From a virus, in IMG/VR virus record IMGVR_UViG_3300033991_000112, positions 1 through 29,870 of that record: a DNA stretch of 29,870 bases, one strand, 5' to 3'. The notes beneath the pieces are model-generated. The model saw only the letters and a program-made list of their open reading frames with translations, did not search any database and was not told where the DNA came from. The position numbers were made by a program, and so were the translations under genes. Positions 4,806 through 28,354 of the stretch are shown here, piece after piece; position 1 is the stretch's first letter, and each line of letters starts with the position of its first letter.

Positions 4806-6404
4806 TTACTCCTCCTTTTTTAGTCCTAATGCTTCCAGTTCCTCAATCATCAAACCTAAAGCCTTTAGTTTATCCAATGCTTTAAGCCTATTCTGTTTTT
4901 TTAATTCCTCATTCTGCCTTAATTGCTGTATCATCTGTTGCCTGGCGATTTCTTTATCCTGTTTTTCCTGAGCAGTTAATTTTAAGATTTTCCTTATCTT
5001 AATATAAGAAGGGATAGTCTCAATCAACACCGGCTCTTCATTTAGGAATTTGCCGGAATGCAAGGGTTGATAGACTCCCTCTTTTGTAGTATCAATCTTA
5101 AAATCCTCGTGGATTAAGGTAAGGATTGACTTGCCAGTTATCCTGCTTTCTTCCTTCAGCGCCTCTGTGGTTTCCTTATCCAGAAGGATTATCTCATATT
5201 TGTCTAAATCTGGGTTTCCAAAAGGATGAGGTAGTTTTTCAGGATCTCCGCCGTTGCCATAGCAAACATGGTCTGGCGCAGATGAACCGGAGACTATCTC
5301 ACCGGATATCTTATCTCTTAATAAAAATATCCAATGGTCTTTGCCGGATGCGGTAACATAGCGGCATTGGGCATAGATAGTATTAGTCTGACAGGCAAGA
5401 CTAATAGTTGTAACATAGGCAGCAGACCAACCTGTAAAGGCAGCATTGTCATCCCTGCCACAAATAAAGGCATTATGGGTCTGGCTAACAGAGTGAGACA
5501 TTTTTATTTGCGGATAGAAACAATACGAGCCACCAGTTATGGTATTATCCGTATATGTCCCAGACCGAGAGACTTCGGAAGTCCCAGTTTTAAGTGCTGT
5601 TGTATCTACCGAGTCGTCGGGCATATAGCCGGAAGTCCCCATTACCGGAATTTTGCTTGCAGCAGCGATGGATGATTTCTCGGTTGCGGCAACCTTTGTA
5701 TCAGCATAGGTCTTTACCGCTTTCTGTGTGGCAATTACAGCGTCGCTATTCGCTGTTAAAGTCCCGTCTGTATCAATGGGAAGGTTAGCGATAGGCGCAG
5801 AATAAAGCCCGCTTTTATTAAGCGCAGCCAGAACCTTTATCGGCGTCATATACTTGGTGTCGTTAGTCCCTGCCTCTGCATCTGAGGTTGAAGCCTTTTC
5901 CATAGCCGAGTCAAGGGTAATGGTCTTGTTCTCCAACGCAGTCCCTGCCGCGTTCCAGCCAATATATGCCTTTGCAGAAGCCGCAGGGAAAACTAAAGCA
6001 GCGCTCAAGTCCGGAGTCCGCAATAATGATCTGTCAATCTGCTCCTGCAACTGCTGGGCAATCATACATAAGCGGTCATAGACCTCTTCCAAAGTCGCTG
6101 CCGATGTTGCCTCATTATCCTCAAGGTCAACTTCCTGAGTTAAAGGCAAGACTCTGCGGATGACCAATTTGTAGGCAGCTGATATTGAAGCACATATAGT
6201 AGTAACATTTCCGCCAGAAGCAGTCCCTGCCCCGCTTATCGTATAATCGGTAGTCAGGGTTAGTGCAGATATTGTTCCGTCGGCAATGGTGATTTTCTCA
6301 ACCACAAGCTCGGTATCCTCATAGATTTTAAAGCTGTATGGGAATACCGAGGTTGCGCCATCGCCATTATAGGTCACTTTATTTGTTAGATTTGTGATAG
6401 GCAT
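4806..6404 (-). CDS. Tail fibre with T7 gp17-type N-terminal attachment domain
   Basis: 532 residues. Residues about 1-150 match the pattern of the podoviral fibre attachment domain: an early YNGDGATSVFPYSFKIYE stretch, a TDYTISG strand, LVIRRVLPLTQEVDLEDN and a helical LEEVYDRLCMIAQQLQEQIDR segment. This domain fixes the fibre to the tail. The middle (about 150-380) is beta-rich with Cys and Trp and would contain the distal part. The last 80 residues are a Lys/Glu-rich coiled coil, which is unusual at a fibre end and may help trimerise it or bind the next coiled-coil protein. A GGAGG site precedes the ATG, and gene order after the internal virion proteins is T7-like. Confidence 0.8.
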   Translation of the reverse strand: MPITNLTNKVTYNGDGATSVFPYSFKIYEDTELVVEKITIADGTISALTLTTDYTISGAGTASGGNVTTICASISAAYKLVIRRVLPLTQEVDLEDNEATSAATLEEVYDRLCMIAQQLQEQIDRSLLRTPDLSAALVFPAASAKAYIGWNAAGTALENKTITLDSAMEKASTSDAEAGTNDTKYMTPIKVLAALNKSGLYSAPIANLPIDTDGTLTANSDAVIATQKAVKTYADTKVAATEKSSIAAASKIPVMGTSGYMPDDSVDTTALKTGTSEVSRSGTYTDNTITGGSYCFYPQIKMSHSVSQTHNAFICGRDDNAAFTGWSAAYVTTISLACQTNTIYAQCRYVTASGKDHWIFLLRDKISGEIVSGSSAPDHVCYGNGGDPEKLPHPFGNPDLDKYEIILLDKETTEALKEESRITGKSILTLIHEDFKIDTTKEGVYQPLHSGKFLNEEPVLIETIPSYIKIRKILKLTAQEKQDKEIARQQMIQQLRQNEELKKQNRLKALDKLKALGLMIEELEALGLKKEE

Positions 6405-14314: not shown

Positions 14315-14350
14315 TAAAACTAAAGAGGGAAGGATTTCTCCTTCCCTCTT
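14315..14350 (-). terminator. Strong intrinsic-type hairpin after the head genes
   Basis: On the minus strand a perfect 11-base-pair stem (arms at 14350-14340 and 14333-14323, AAGAGGGAAGG and CCTTCCCTCTT) encloses a six-base loop (AGAAAT) and is followed by TAGTTTTA, a weak U-rich run. It lies between the head-associated gene and the tail tubular A-like gene. It probably reduces read-through or protects the capsid transcript end; the short U run suggests incomplete termination, so tail genes can still be expressed. Confidence 0.8.
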
Positions 14351-20709: not shown

Positions 20710-22170
20710 CTAATGAAAATCTGTTTTTGCAAATGAAGGTAAATGCCTTCTTGTGTCAACCTGCTCGTCAGAAGTGTTAGCATAAGCGGGCAGTTTATTC
20801 TCATCATCAAAAAGCCCTCTGCGCTCATCTCTGTAATTCTGCTCAAATGCCCATTGGAGCATCTTCCAGCAATCAGCGCGGCCAGGAGATCTGCCAATAC
20901 GCTCTTTAATATCCTCTTTAGGAATAAGCCGTAAGAACCCTCTTTGTATCTCATACTCATCGGCTTTTAATTCCTCAACCAATGCAGTATCTTTAAAATT
21001 AACCCCAGCCCTGCCAGCCCAGCCTCGTTTCTGTGCTGTAAATGCCGCTTCAGTGCGCATATTCAAATACATAACTCTATCGCCTATCTTTATCTCGCTT
21101 GGCGCTGAACCGTGAAATTTGATAATATGAATACCCTGTAAATATGAGTCTGATAACTTAGTCAACTCTGTATAAGTCTCAATACCCAAACCGTCGCAGT
21201 CAACGATAATCCAGTAGCCGTTTATCTGCTTACACATCTCAACCGCTTTGATTGCCTTTTGGGATGGAGGCATAATAGTCTCGGTATAGATATCTAAAAC
21301 CTCTCCGCCCTTGCCAGACATAAACACATTGTCATCAGCACCTTCGCCTGATGGGTCAACTGCAACACCTGCATTAGCAGAGTGTCGAGCTAGTAACGCT
21401 TGTCGAGAATACATATGCTCAATTAACGGCTGAGGGAATACGATATTACGAATAGATACAGTCCAGTCATTTAAAACATATTGTCTGTATAACGGCTCAT
21501 TGACCTGCTGTAAAACTTTAAGTGAAGCGATAAAGTCAGGCTTGACGAACTTTCTATTTTCTTGAGCTAATGTCTCAGACTCTATCAATTCTGAGAAAGA
21601 ACCATAATTCTCCTGTTTTAATAATTCGGCAATCTCTTCAGTTACGCTCTGCTGGAGTTTACCCTCTTTCCATAAAGGCAACATCCAATGGTCTCCGGCA
21701 TTAGCAATCACCCAACCACTTCGCAAAGGCAGACCTAATTTAACAAACTCCGGGTCTGGAACTATATCGCGCCTTAACCTGCCGAATAACATAAAGAACT
21801 CTCTATTACTCTCAAGCTCATCGCCCTGCTCAATGTAAAACCAGCCGAGATTTATATTCTGTTGATTGATTGAGTCAATCTCGTCCAAGTGCCTGAACAT
21901 TATCATTGAGTTATTGGGATAAAGAACATTACGGTCAGAGTCAACTTTTAGTTTGGTGTAGGTTTCAAAATCACGGAGTGTTGAGTCGTGCAGGGAGCGG
22001 GCTGTCTTTCTGAATATAACGCCTAAGTTATTCGGTATGCCTTTTGAATAAGTAATTGCCCTGAAGATTGCTACGATTGTCTTACCGACATTCCAACCGC
22101 CGACAAAAGCCGGATGGCGGGCTTTGGAATAAAAAAATTTATATTGCGAGGGCGTTAATTCTATTTGCAT
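20710..22170 (-). CDS. Terminase large subunit
   Basis: 486 residues. An ATPase domain has a Walker A-type motif at residues 24-31 (GGWNVGKT) and a Walker B-type WFYIEQGDE at 110-118. A RNase H-like nuclease domain follows with three acidic positions in the expected order: Asp272 in VAVDPSGEG, Asp324 and Asp326 in IIVDCDG, and Asp433 in SPGRADCW. It pumps DNA into the procapsid and cuts concatemers. It starts 32 bases inside the small terminase candidate, with an AAAAGGAGAAG site. All key residues appear present; length is usual for this family. Confidence 0.9.
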   Translation of the reverse strand: MQIELTPSQYKFFYSKARHPAFVGGWNVGKTIVAIFRAITYSKGIPNNLGVIFRKTARSLHDSTLRDFETYTKLKVDSDRNVLYPNNSMIMFRHLDEIDSINQQNINLGWFYIEQGDELESNREFFMLFGRLRRDIVPDPEFVKLGLPLRSGWVIANAGDHWMLPLWKEGKLQQSVTEEIAELLKQENYGSFSELIESETLAQENRKFVKPDFIASLKVLQQVNEPLYRQYVLNDWTVSIRNIVFPQPLIEHMYSRQALLARHSANAGVAVDPSGEGADDNVFMSGKGGEVLDIYTETIMPPSQKAIKAVEMCKQINGYWIIVDCDGLGIETYTELTKLSDSYLQGIHIIKFHGSAPSEIKIGDRVMYLNMRTEAAFTAQKRGWAGRAGVNFKDTALVEELKADEYEIQRGFLRLIPKEDIKERIGRSPGRADCWKMLQWAFEQNYRDERRGLFDDENKLPAYANTSDEQVDTRRHLPSFAKTDFH

Positions 22171-22516
22171 CTTCTCCTTTTAAAACTTCTTTGGGGCTGA
22201 TGATGAATATTCGGGTATCGCCTGCAAATCCTTCACCGATGAGCTTCTGTTCAGCCTTACCTTCAAGTCTGTCAAAGATTTCCTTAATTGCGGTATTGTC
22301 TCCCTGCGCCGCATTAAGCAATAATCTCCAAACAATCGCATCCTTGACCTTGCCGTGAATAATTTTCTTTGTACCTGGGTCTTCGTAATCTATTTTCTTA
22401 TTTAGATATTTTTTGAGTAATGGAGTGAGATATTTCTTAGGACGGTTTTTATTGTGGTTGATTGGTTGGTGAGTAGGAGAAAATCTATTTTTTATTTGTT
22501 CAGTATTTTGTTTCAT
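22139..22516 (-). CDS. Candidate terminase small subunit
   Basis: 125 residues. It starts with a basic flexible segment (NRFSPTHQPINHNKNRPKK), a pattern seen in DUF5681-like phage proteins, followed by a helical region. The helical part carries DAIVWRLLLNAAQGDNTAIKEIFDRLEGKAEQ. It overlaps the large terminase by 32 bases. In phages the DNA-binding small subunit normally precedes the large subunit, so the role is inferred from position and basic start. No clear helix-turn-helix is visible. Confidence 0.65.
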   Translation of the reverse strand: MKQNTEQIKNRFSPTHQPINHNKNRPKKYLTPLLKKYLNKKIDYEDPGTKKIIHGKVKDAIVWRLLLNAAQGDNTAIKEIFDRLEGKAEQKLIGEGFAGDTRIFIISPKEVLKGEDANRINALAI

Positions 22517-22589: not shown

Positions 22590-22642
22590 GACCCCAGCGA
22601 AAAGGAATTGCTTCCGTAAAAGCCCTTTTAATCTACGGGGTC
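22590..22642 (-). promoter_or_regulatory. Branched RNA element before the terminase operon
   Basis: GACCCC (22642-22637) pairs with GGGGTC (22595-22590) and closes two hairpins on the minus strand: a stem with CGTA/TACG and an AAAG/CTTT core, and GGAA-GCAA-TTCC, which has a GNRA tetraloop. The same sequence folds on the plus strand, where a T run follows. On the minus strand it precedes the short leader ORF. The 173 bases between 22689 and 22517 hold only this element and the leader ORF. It may be an attenuator, terminator or processing site; the U run on the minus side (TTTATTTTTA) is broken. Confidence 0.5.
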
Positions 22643-22689
22643 TGCTTTTTATCTTCTAATTAAAGTATATATTATGGGATTGTGATTAC

Positions 22690-23153: not shown

Positions 23154-23219
23154 AAACAAAAAAGGCAAGGGCGCGGTATAATTCCGCATTTAAAGTCCGT
23201 ATATGGACTCCCTTGCCTT
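23154..23219 (-). terminator. Intrinsic terminator with a three-way-junction stem
   Basis: On the minus strand a 10-base-pair stem (AAGGCAAGGG at 23219-23210 with CCCTTGCCTT at 23171-23162) is followed by six Ts. The stem does not close a simple loop. It encloses two further hairpins: AGTCC/GGACT (23209-23205 and 23198-23194) and GCGG/CCGC (23187-23184 and 23176-23173). The branched form and the clean U tract make it a convincing terminator for the genes upstream (23252-26237 block) and before the isolated 149-residue gene. Confidence 0.75.
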
Positions 23220-23251
23220 ACTCCTATCAGAAAATCAGGCTTTAGGTTACT

Positions 23252-24773: not shown

Positions 24774-26237
24774 TCATATCACTATCGCAACCTCTTCTAA
24801 ATTCATACTGACCTTGATTTTCCTCTCTTTTGCCTGTAATAATTTGCCGAGCAATATCTCTCGCTCCTCAATCCATTCCAACCTCGTCTTTTCCTGCCCC
24901 ATCAGCTCGTATTTCTTGGACTCCTCAAGGTAGACTATCGCCTTGTCAAATTCATTCAAGAATATATAGCAACTGGTGATGTTAAAATAAACTTTAAAAT
25001 TATTCTTCTCATAGTTAAGTGCCTCAAGGTAGTTTTGCAGGGCAGCGCCAAAATGCCCCCTGGCATACATCAGGTTGCCGAATAAAAGCCAACTGTAATA
25101 GTATCTGGGCTCATCTGCCAACTGATAGAAGTTATGCCACCAGTTATTCTCGTATTGCCTTCTTGCATATATCAACTGCCGCAGATACCAGCCTAACAAG
25201 AATATAGCCACGAATGGGTATTCCCTGGCGATTGCAGCAAGAAATATCATCAGTCCTATCCCCGGCAGGTAAAAGTAACGGCAGGTAAGATGCATCTGGC
25301 CAACAGAAAAGAAATTACAAAACATCGCTATATTAATCGTAAACCAAAGCAGACCGAAAAGCGCGGGGTTTTCGGTTAACATATCAACCCGCCAACTATA
25401 ATTCCAGATAAGATTGGTAATCAGAATATACAATACAATCAGGCCAATAAAAAAATACCTGTCCAATTTGGCACTATCTTTCACTCCGCGCTTGTGGGTA
25501 ATATGCTCGCTCATGTAACCCTGATAGAAAGAAAAATGAAGCCCTAGTACGCCATTGACGAAATAGTAGCCATAGAACTTTATCGCTACAATAAACTTGC
25601 GTATGTTTATTGATAGAGCTTCGGTATTTTCGGTATAGTGAACTATTTTGAGGTTCAACTTCGGAGATACCATATAGCGTATCTTTACCCAAAAAGTAAG
25701 GAATACAATCAAAGCAAGCCAACTCCAATGACTCGCCAGGGCAATATAAATCAAAGGCGAGACCATCATGCTTATCGTAAAATACCAGCGCTGGGCATTG
25801 ATAATTGCGGAAGGATAGGGTAGAACAGTCAGAGAATAGATAAATGGCGCAAGGAAAGGAACTGCCCAGGCAAGCATTATTAGAACAGCAGTTATGGCAT
25901 AGGGTTTGCCGGTTAAACCTGCCACAATCTCGGAATTAACCGGATGTGCAGCAAATAGTAAAGCAGCTAGACAAGCGATAGGTGTTCTGCCAAAAGCAAA
26001 ATAAATCATCAAGCAAGCAACAAAGTGAACAATTATTGGTATAGAATGAGCATAAGGATTAGGTCTGCCCCAGAATTTATCGCCCTTGAACTGCCGCCAG
26101 AGGAATTGCCATTTGCTTTTTGGCTTGATACCGGAGGAGGCATATATCGCAAAGTCGTCAATGATATAATCATACCAAAGCGCAGGGATATAGAAAACGA
26201 ATATCCCCAACAACAGTAAAAGAAATGCCCAGAACAT
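24774..26237 (-). CDS. TMTC/GT-C-like membrane glycosyltransferase candidate with C-terminal TPRs
   Basis: 487 residues with about ten hydrophobic spans over residues 1-370, then a soluble helical part containing two TPR-like repeats (near WLLFGNLMYARGHFGAALQN and NITSCYIFLNEFDKAIVYL). The first extracytoplasmic loop carries an acidic pair (Asp27-Asp28 in DYIIDDF), as in GT-C fold enzymes. Later come PYAHSIPIIVH and, at 98-103, HPVNSE followed by a Gly-rich helix, like the HPVHTE motif of TMTC proteins. GT-C enzymes use lipid-linked sugars to glycosylate proteins or polymers outside the cytoplasm. A ribosome-binding AAAGGAG is clear. In a phage it could alter the host surface; activity and substrate are unproven. 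Confidence 0.6.
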   Translation of the reverse strand: MFWAFLLLLLGIFVFYIPALWYDYIIDDFAIYASSGIKPKSKWQFLWRQFKGDKFWGRPNPYAHSIPIIVHFVACLMIYFAFGRTPIACLAALLFAAHPVNSEIVAGLTGKPYAITAVLIMLAWAVPFLAPFIYSLTVLPYPSAIINAQRWYFTISMMVSPLIYIALASHWSWLALIVFLTFWVKIRYMVSPKLNLKIVHYTENTEALSINIRKFIVAIKFYGYYFVNGVLGLHFSFYQGYMSEHITHKRGVKDSAKLDRYFFIGLIVLYILITNLIWNYSWRVDMLTENPALFGLLWFTINIAMFCNFFSVGQMHLTCRYFYLPGIGLMIFLAAIAREYPFVAIFLLGWYLRQLIYARRQYENNWWHNFYQLADEPRYYYSWLLFGNLMYARGHFGAALQNYLEALNYEKNNFKVYFNITSCYIFLNEFDKAIVYLEESKKYELMGQEKTRLEWIEEREILLGKLLQAKERKIKVSMNLEEVAIVI

Positions 26238-26781: not shown

Positions 26782-26978
26782 TATTTTAATTTTCTCTTTT
26801 TGCACGCTCTGTAACAAACGGCAAAATCCCAATACCCCACAGTATTAGTAAAAGCATTGATTTGTCGGGCTATTTTTATCCTATCTTCATATATATCACA
26901 ATTCTTACAAAAAACTTTTGGCGATAATGCGGGCAATTTAATATGTGATTTCAGGGAATAGTCTTTAACCTCATTCAT
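26781..26978 (-). CDS. 65-residue Cys-containing basic protein
   Basis: Cys24-x2-Cys27 (FCKNC) and Cys55-x3-Cys59 (VCYRAC) could bind one zinc ion. The N-terminus has a Lys/Pro/Leu-rich stretch and the C-terminus is very basic (KKRKLK). The start overlaps the stop of the 30-residue membrane peptide by eight bases. The pattern is that of a small DNA- or RNA-binding phage protein, not a named family. Confidence 0.5.
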   Translation of the reverse strand: MNEVKDYSLKSHIKLPALSPKVFCKNCDIYEDRIKIARQINAFTNTVGYWDFAVCYRACKKRKLK

Positions 26979-27063
26979 TTTTTCTTCTGTTTTTTTCTAT
27001 GTGTTGTAGTATGAGAAAAATACAGTAATAAAGAACCACAAGTATCATAAAGAATAAACCCAT
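26971..27063 (-). CDS. 30-residue membrane peptide
   Basis: Frame from ATG 27063: a hydrophobic span (LFFMILVVLYYCIFLILQ) directly after the start, then a basic end (EKNRRKNE). It overlaps the next gene by eight bases (ATGAATGA). An AAGGAG tract lies 16 bases upstream, farther than ideal; an internal ATG six codons in is an alternative start. A single-span peptide could modulate host membrane or act in superinfection control; unknown. Confidence 0.4.
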   Translation of the reverse strand: MGLFFMILVVLYYCIFLILQHIEKNRRKNE

Positions 27064-27093
27064 ATTATTTTTCTTTTATCTCCTTTTTGAATA

Positions 27094-27251
27094 GGTCAGC
27101 CCTGGACAGGATTTCACAGCTCTCTTGGTTTCGGACTTTCGTCTCCCGCACTACCTGCAAGCAAGGACGCTAATAACCTCGCCACTTTCAGTATCCTTTC
27201 GGATAATTAGCCCTACTGCTGTTTTCTTCTTTTCAGCCACCAGAGCCAACC
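27094..27251 (-). ncRNA. Probable structured RNA element, family not recognised
   Basis: On the minus strand the ends pair as a 12-base-pair stem with three G-U pairs: GGTTGGCTCTGG (27251-27240) with CCAGGGCTGACC (27105-27094). Inside, ACAGC (27222-27218) pairs with GCTGT (27120-27116). GCTAAT (27211-27206) pairs with ATTAGC (27174-27169) and stacks directly on a TATCC-GAAA-GGATA hairpin (27205-27192), leaving a 17-base bulge. A further GAC-GAAA-GTC hairpin is at about 27144-27135. GNRA tetraloops and nested stems suggest a folded RNA. It fills the gap between two genes and holds only short frames without good starts. I do not recognise a named class. Confidence 0.6.
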
Positions 27252-27253
27252 TT

Positions 27254-27445
27254 TTAGAGTTCTTCCAAAAACTTTGCAATTGTTTCTTTAAGCTTTCGTA
27301 TTTTCTTTCTTAAATTTTTTCTTCGTGTTCCTTTAAAAACTTTCAATGGAACAAAAAATGCTGTTAAGGGAAATTCATAATACTCTGCAATTCGTTCTAA
27401 AAGTTTAATGTCAATTTCTATCTTCCCCTTTTTCCTGTTAGTCAT
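27254..27445 (-). CDS. Short basic protein, possible HTH-derived
   Basis: From the ATG at 27445, which overlaps the stop of the gene before it by eight bases, the product is 63 residues. The segment LLERIAEYYEFPLTAFFVPL resembles the last helix and turn of Cro/C1-type helix-turn-helix proteins. The C-terminal 30 residues are strongly basic and helical. It ends directly before the structured RNA element. It may bind nucleic acid; family not certain. A longer frame to 27502 would overlap the upstream gene by 65 bases, so I prefer the shorter form. Confidence 0.5.
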   Translation of the reverse strand: MTNRKKGKIEIDIKLLERIAEYYEFPLTAFFVPLKVFKGTRRKNLRKKIRKLKETIAKFLEEL

Positions 27446-27614
27446 TGGGAATCTTATATTCATCTTTAAATACTGGGTCATAGTTCCATACCTTTTCAAC
27501 ATTATTTATTGTTTCTTTAAGCGAAGTTTCACTTGTGCTTAAAACCTCCTGTCCATTTTTCCACCAAGCAAATGCTCTCAATCCATCAATAAAACCTTGT
27601 TTATACTGGTTCAT
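27438..27614 (-). CDS. Small hypothetical phage protein
   Basis: Starting at ATG 27614 the product is 58 residues (MNQYKQGFIDGLRAFAWWKN start). A strong AGGGAGGAG tract lies directly before this ATG; alternative upstream starts at 27638 and at 27674 (TTG) are less likely. The Tyr/Trp-rich beginning and a conserved-looking GQEVLSTSETSLKE part resemble a family of small phage early proteins of unknown function. It follows the replication gene by 56 bases. Confidence 0.5.
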   Translation of the reverse strand: MNQYKQGFIDGLRAFAWWKNGQEVLSTSETSLKETINNVEKVWNYDPVFKDEYKIPND

Positions 27615-27670: not shown

Positions 27671-28354
27671 TCAAGGGTTAATTATTCCTTTCAAAACCTC
27701 CCCCATCTTCTTGGTATCCCAAGTCTTTAAGTCATCCTGATGTTGCCTATGTAGGCTCTGATAGTAATACTCAAAGTTCTGCTTATCCTGACAGCGTTCC
27801 AGAACCGCAATAGCGCTTTCGGGTTTCATTCGGTATATGAGAGTCCAGAGTTTACCGCTCTTGGTCTTGGTTTGTTCGCTTTTAAGGATTTTTGTATTTA
27901 AGAGGGAATGGATTTGTTTAAAAAGTTCGCTTTTGTCTTTTTCAATGATTTCAGTGCCTTCCTTAACTTCCTTCCCTTCCTTCCTTCCTTCCTTCCTTAT
28001 AGCACTGATTTCAGTTGATTTCAGTTGATTAGGGTCTGGAAGGGGTAAATTTGTCTTGCGTTTTCTATCTATAATCTGATGCGTGGCAAGGTTTTTCACG
28101 AAAAGATACTGCTTATTATCGTTGTCATAAACTATAACTTTGCTTATTTTTTGGAGCTCTATCACTAATTTAGCAATATTTATTTTGTCATTGGGGAAGA
28201 TTTTTGCCTTTAAACCTATCAAATCATAGTCCAAAACCCCATTATCATCAGCAAAATTCCATAAACCAACATAAAAAAGGCGGGCATCCCGAGAAATTTT
28301 AAGCATATCTCCATCTGTCCAAAATTCTGGTTTTATGGTTCTAATTCGTGCCAT
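27671..28354 (-). CDS. Replisome-organizer-type (DnaD-like) phage replication protein
   Basis: 227 residues. The N-terminus, MARIRTIKPEFWTDGDMLKI then SRDARLFYVGLWNFADDNGVL, matches the winged-helix domain of phage replisome organizers, followed by LKAKIFPNDKINIAKL. These proteins bind the replication origin and recruit helicase. A charged linker (about 115-140, Lys/Gly/Glu rich) is encoded partly by a CCTT tetranucleotide tract. The C-terminal part is helical (AVLERCQDKQNFEYYYQSLHRQ) and could contact partner proteins. A duplicate of its first 14 codons lies at 28629-28673. Origin not located. Confidence 0.75.
   Translation of the reverse strand: MARIRTIKPEFWTDGDMLKISRDARLFYVGLWNFADDNGVLDYDLIGLKAKIFPNDKINIAKLVIELQKISKVIVYDNDNKQYLFVKNLATHQIIDRKRKTNLPLPDPNQLKSTEISAIRKEGRKEGKEVKEGTEIIEKDKSELFKQIHSLLNTKILKSEQTKTKSGKLWTLIYRMKPESAIAVLERCQDKQNFEYYYQSLHRQHQDDLKTWDTKKMGEVLKGIINP
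27975..27998 (+). repeat. CCTT tetranucleotide tract inside the replication gene
   Basis: Six perfect tandem copies of CCTT (24 bases) lie in the linker-coding part of the replication gene. Because the unit is not a multiple of three, loss or gain of one copy would shift the frame and cut the protein before its C-terminal domain. Homopolymer-like tetranucleotide tracts of this type are prone to slippage. It may also be a neutral consequence of a Lys/Gly/Arg-rich linker. Confidence 0.8.

Follow-up and report, generated by a model that had tools for sequence, protein, structure and literature searches.

The window analysed here is the whole of a 29,870-base virus record from an uncultured phage, whose long open reading frames (ORFs) lie nearly all on the minus strand and which encodes a connector-type portal protein, a terminase and a replication initiator. 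The segment under study occupies positions 27094-27251 on the minus strand, and every neighbouring gene is on the same strand. It is preceded by an ORF of 82 amino acids (27254-27502, minus), which has a gene-like codon score of 16.6 and no assigned function, searches of the Pfam and PHROG families having returned no match for it. Downstream lies a 30-codon ORF (26971-27063, minus) with no family match above chance, whose frame translation includes a predicted hydrophobic segment, MGLFFMILVVLYYCIFLILQHIEKNRRKNE, as expected of a small membrane protein. The sequence ahead of this ORF contains a probable ribosome-binding site of the AAAAAGGAG type (27079-27090, minus, with AGGAG around 27083). 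Elsewhere in the neighbourhood, positions 24774-26237 (minus) encode a multi-spanning membrane protein of 487 amino acids with TPR-like repeats at its C terminus, an unusual cargo for a 30-kb phage, which we take to resemble the GT-C/TMTC-type glycosyltransferases. The gene for the replication initiator itself contains three iteron-like copies of TGATTTCAGT (at 27946, 28006 and 28016), and this stretch, 27946-28027, is a possible replication origin.

The 192-nt gap between the two ORFs is closed by a stem on the minus strand. An earlier note on this DNA had described it as a stem of 12 base pairs; the stem is present, and its length is 13 base pairs (27252-27240 with 27105-27093), including three G-U pairs, with an energy of -25.2 kcal/mol. 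The 5' arm (27240-27252) reads AGGTTGGCTCTGG and the 3' arm (27093-27105) CCAGGGCTGACCT. In strength it is joint first among the minus-strand helices of the window, and an equally strong helix was obtained in 0.1% of 2000 dinucleotide shuffles of the gap, giving a p of about 0.001 that is partly post hoc because the stem was chosen after it had been pointed out. When helix z-scores are corrected for composition, the 310 windows of 192 nt on the minus strand include none more extreme than its own, save for the window overlapping it. Thus, the closing stem is non-random and unusual. Its pairing probability is 0.97-0.99 in the isolated segment and falls to 0.31-0.51 in longer transcripts because the 5' arm can pair locally instead.

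The interior of the segment presents a different picture from the nested architecture that had been drawn for it. All the complementary strings quoted in the earlier note are found in place on the minus strand, but most of the stems built from them are minority states: the ACAGC/GCTGT stem has a pairing probability of only 0.13, the GCTAAT/ATTAGC stem one of 0.005, and the second GAAA hairpin (GAC-GAAA-GTC) one of 0.19. The TATCC-GAAA-GGATA hairpin (27192-27205, minus) is predicted as claimed, with pair probabilities of 0.75-0.99, and by the same folding model one of the two GAAA tetraloops in that drawing is probably absent. When the proposed structure is forced, its energy is -42.0 kcal/mol against a minimum of -47.5 kcal/mol, a cost of 5.5 kcal/mol. 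The overall folding energy of the 158-nt segment is not supported as exceeding chance: its z against shuffled controls is -1.15, with 23 of 200 shuffles folding as well, and 46 of 372 minus-strand windows have a z equal to or below it. For the whole gap the z is -1.86, a value reached by 3.9% of the shuffles. The G+C content of the segment is 51% against 40% for the genome. At 53%, one 100-nt stretch here is richer than any in the other gaps, which reach 48-52%. The absence of a terminator, as asserted earlier, was borne out by a search of the minus strand that detected nothing resembling a terminator at the segment, and no promoter above chance was detected there.

Three further sites in the window also have folding potential. 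Positions 23158-23222 (minus) can form a three-way-junction hairpin in which AAGGCAAGGG and GCCCTTGCCTT enclose the hairpins AGTCC-ATATAC-GGACT and GCGG-AATTATA-CCGC, joined by TTAAAT, with a T-run following. With a z of -4.56 and none of 200 shuffles as stable, its structured-RNA signal is much stronger than that of the 27094-27251 segment; it is probably a branched terminator, and it was not found in 14 related contigs. The hairpin at 14323-14350, between two structural genes, has 12 perfectly matched base pairs and is flanked on either side by T-rich sequence (z -5.15); it is terminator-like. The gap before the gene at 22139-22516 can form a stem closed by GACCCC/GGGGTC (22590-22665, minus) with a z of -1.6, and a 158-nt window overlapping it has a z of -4.5.

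The description of the segment as intergenic holds insofar as it lies between the 82-amino-acid and 30-codon ORFs, but it left out of account a plausible short ORF that the segment overlaps. This possible ORF of 29 codons (27151-27240, minus) would start at a GTG (27240-27238), with an AAGG nine bases upstream, stop at a TAG (27153-27151) and encode (M)AEKKKTAVGLIIRKDTESGEVISVLACR. The edges of the closing stem fit the gene borders around it. The TAA stop of the 82-amino-acid ORF occupies 27256-27254 and the 5' arm begins one base later, covering the AGG of the AAGG site and the first G of the GTG; the 3' arm ends about ten bases from the AGGAG site of the downstream small ORF, which is just outside the stem. 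The order is therefore TAA, 5' arm, GTG, 3' arm and ribosome-binding site, and the configuration associated with translational coupling is found here, with a stable stem over the start region of a downstream ORF and adjoining the upstream stop.

The codon score of the GTG-to-TAG frame (+5.9) equals that of a true phage gene of the same length, whereas the continuation past the TAG (27076-27150, minus; CGRRKSETKRAVKSCPGLTYSKRR, ending in TAA) scores -8.0, and since this codon use is not gene-like the continuation is probably untranslated. The best ORF score of the gap was reached by 13% of the shuffles, and 34% of them contained an ORF of at least 29 codons; taken by itself, the ORF signal does not exceed chance. 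Taken across the TAG, which is the single stop in frame between the two gene-flush borders, the frame gives KRLALVAEKKKTAVGLIIRKDTESGEVISVLACR before the stop and CGRRKSETKRAVKSC after it, a beta-hairpin-like stretch followed by CRxCG. Recoding of the TAG was ruled out, this codon being the genuine stop of six of the 34 ORFs counted.

Searches with the 29-codon ORF recovered no family match, and tblastn with the frame of the segment recovered no relative. When the stop was read as tryptophan, Pfam DUF6980 and FBP_C were matched at non-significant E-values of about 0.02-0.03, and these matches vanished once the guessed residue was removed; the PDB entry 8q5b, "Small CPxCG-related zinc finger protein", was matched at a likewise non-significant E of 0.31. 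AlphaFold2 modelled the read-through frame as beta-beta-beta-alpha with a mean pLDDT of 71.6, and a Foldseek search with the model gave no match at an E of 0.001 or better. These structural results are uninformative because an antisense control ORF scored almost equally (pLDDT 70.2). In other phages, the 16-mer CTGAAAGTGGCGAGGT is found for the most part within open frames, often in the same frame, as ESGEV.

The claim that the segment belongs to no named RNA class agrees with our searches: Rfam 15 has no match in the window at the gathering cut-off, and none of the seven sub-threshold matches obtained on searching 26980-27520 permissively falls within the segment. A tRNA or tmRNA at the segment was rejected by search, as was a known riboswitch or ribozyme given the lack of an Rfam match. 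No homologue of the segment was found by blastn against phage and plasmid records, no usable homologue in viral contigs searched with the 82-amino-acid neighbour, the segment peptide and other neighbours, no match to a 20-mer in 84,980 GTDB genomes, and nothing usable from terminase alignment in the GTDB genomes. Two 16-mers had 12 and 24 matches in viral contigs, which look like chance. We also collected 14 related contigs, through the terminase (L014-L018 and L020-L027) or the replication protein (L019); neither blastn nor a covariance model built from the single sequence detected the element in them, and none of them covers the equivalent early region. Among these relatives the neighbouring replication gene is shared by L019 alone, and the L019 contig stops a few hundred bases beyond that match, which makes the absence of the element from relatives uninformative. 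One of the contigs related by terminase (L018, 76% identity) encodes in its early region (292-1326 and 5520-6200) a pair of proteins that consist of short tandem repeats (LAASGYSSQ... and CSFGEQ...) and have no counterpart in the window.

These observations lead us to favour, with a probability of roughly 0.35, a cis-acting intercistronic stem that couples or insulates the translation of neighbouring early genes. The segment would be intercistronic sequence within an early mRNA of the phage, with the 13-bp stem closing the gap and its 5' arm hiding the Shine-Dalgarno sequence and the first start base of the possible 29-codon ORF. A ribosome ending the 82-amino-acid gene at 27256-27254 would cover and open the 5' arm, thereby exposing the next start; at other times the stem would conceal the start and shield the transcript between the genes. 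We prefer this reading because of the strength and rarity of the stem and the fit of its arms to the gene borders, together with the gene-like codon use from GTG to TAG, the lack of a terminator and the same-strand neighbours. Counting against it are the drop in stem probability in longer transcripts, an ORF signal that shuffles can equal, the post hoc choice of the stem, the failure of the searches to find a homologue and, with the reservation given above, the absence of the element from the related contigs. Accepting it, we infer that the segment is transcribed, that the stem forms in vivo and that the small ORF is translated, the coupling itself being read from position only.

A close rival, which we rank second and hold as tentative, is that the segment is a small unannotated protein gene, either of 29 codons or a degraded one of about 55-67 codons broken by the TAG, and that the stem is fortuitous. 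The single in-frame stop between gene-flush borders, the codon use ahead of the TAG, the open frames in which CTGAAAGTGGCGAGGT mostly occurs and the predicted fold are all consistent with a gene, as is the weak, non-significant likeness to small zinc proteins (8q5b, and DUF6980/FBP_C with the tryptophan). However, there is no family match once that residue is removed and no tblastn relative, the codon score is negative past a TAG that ends six other genes, the antisense control models about as well as the frame itself, and the closing stem is left unexplained. A third reading is that the segment is a new structured non-coding RNA (27093-27252), regulatory or acting in trans as a small RNA, with a multi-branched interior unlike the one drawn earlier. 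We regard such an RNA as unlikely: the stem exceeds chance and the G+C content stands out in a 40% G+C genome, a signature used to find non-coding RNAs in A+T-rich genomes (PMC8632094), but the folding z-scores are slight for both segment and gap, the inner stems are minority states, other gaps are nearly as G+C-rich, no promoter rises above chance, and neither sequence nor single-sequence covariance searches yielded a homologue. Less likely again is an ordinary intergenic spacer, with the stem being simply the single extreme helix that inspection of an entire window can be expected to yield. The ordinary overall folding energy fits a spacer, as does a plus-strand stem of -26.6 kcal/mol within coding sequence; yet the closing stem ranks first of 310 on its own strand after composition correction, its overlapping window apart, and its arms coincide with gene borders.

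Several known systems are comparable with the segment. Long-range stems that hide a Shine-Dalgarno sequence bring about translational coupling, a principle known from the mRNAs of RNA phages and of ribosomal proteins. As in those systems, an arm covers the start region just past the upstream stop, so that a terminating ribosome would open the stem; in contrast to them, the downstream ORF here is putative and only 29 codons long, and the stem spans 160 nt. The intercistronic stems of T7 early mRNAs are RNase III processing sites and take the form of compact hairpins. The present stem shares with them a place between the early genes in a podovirus-like phage, the coding strand and the lack of a U-run, but its 13 base pairs, three of them G-U, enclose an interior of 134 nt rather than forming a compact hairpin. 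GC-rich intergenic candidates for non-coding RNAs in A+T-rich bacteria are backed by covariation over many homologues (PMC8632094); our segment shares with them a G+C-rich gap in a lower-GC genome and differs in being a single sequence. The frame of the segment would give a beta-hairpin-like stretch and then CRxCG, similar to the small CPxCG zinc-finger proteins (PDB 8q5b; PMC11241148), whereas its CRxCG has the TAG stop as the middle residue, there is one C-x-x-C only, and the E-value is 0.31.

Of the proposal of a regulatory or catalytic-type RNA, what survives is an intergenic element that lacks a terminator and whose closing stem is non-random; the nested architecture and a fold beyond chance are not supported. 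The catalytic part was drawn from the GAAA tetraloops alone, of which one is probably not formed, and there is no support for a free-standing ribozyme or riboswitch. The segment illustrates how structured RNA may be over-called from complementary words where the outer stem is the only exceptional one. Should the stem act as we propose, it would add a further case to those in which mRNA structure couples translation within an early operon of a phage. There is also a slim prospect that it belongs to a new class of phage intercistronic RNA, a closed 160-nt domain in which the start of a short ORF is hidden in the closing stem and which regulates early genes; covariation inside the stem in relatives, if later shown, would make it a genuine new RNA class.
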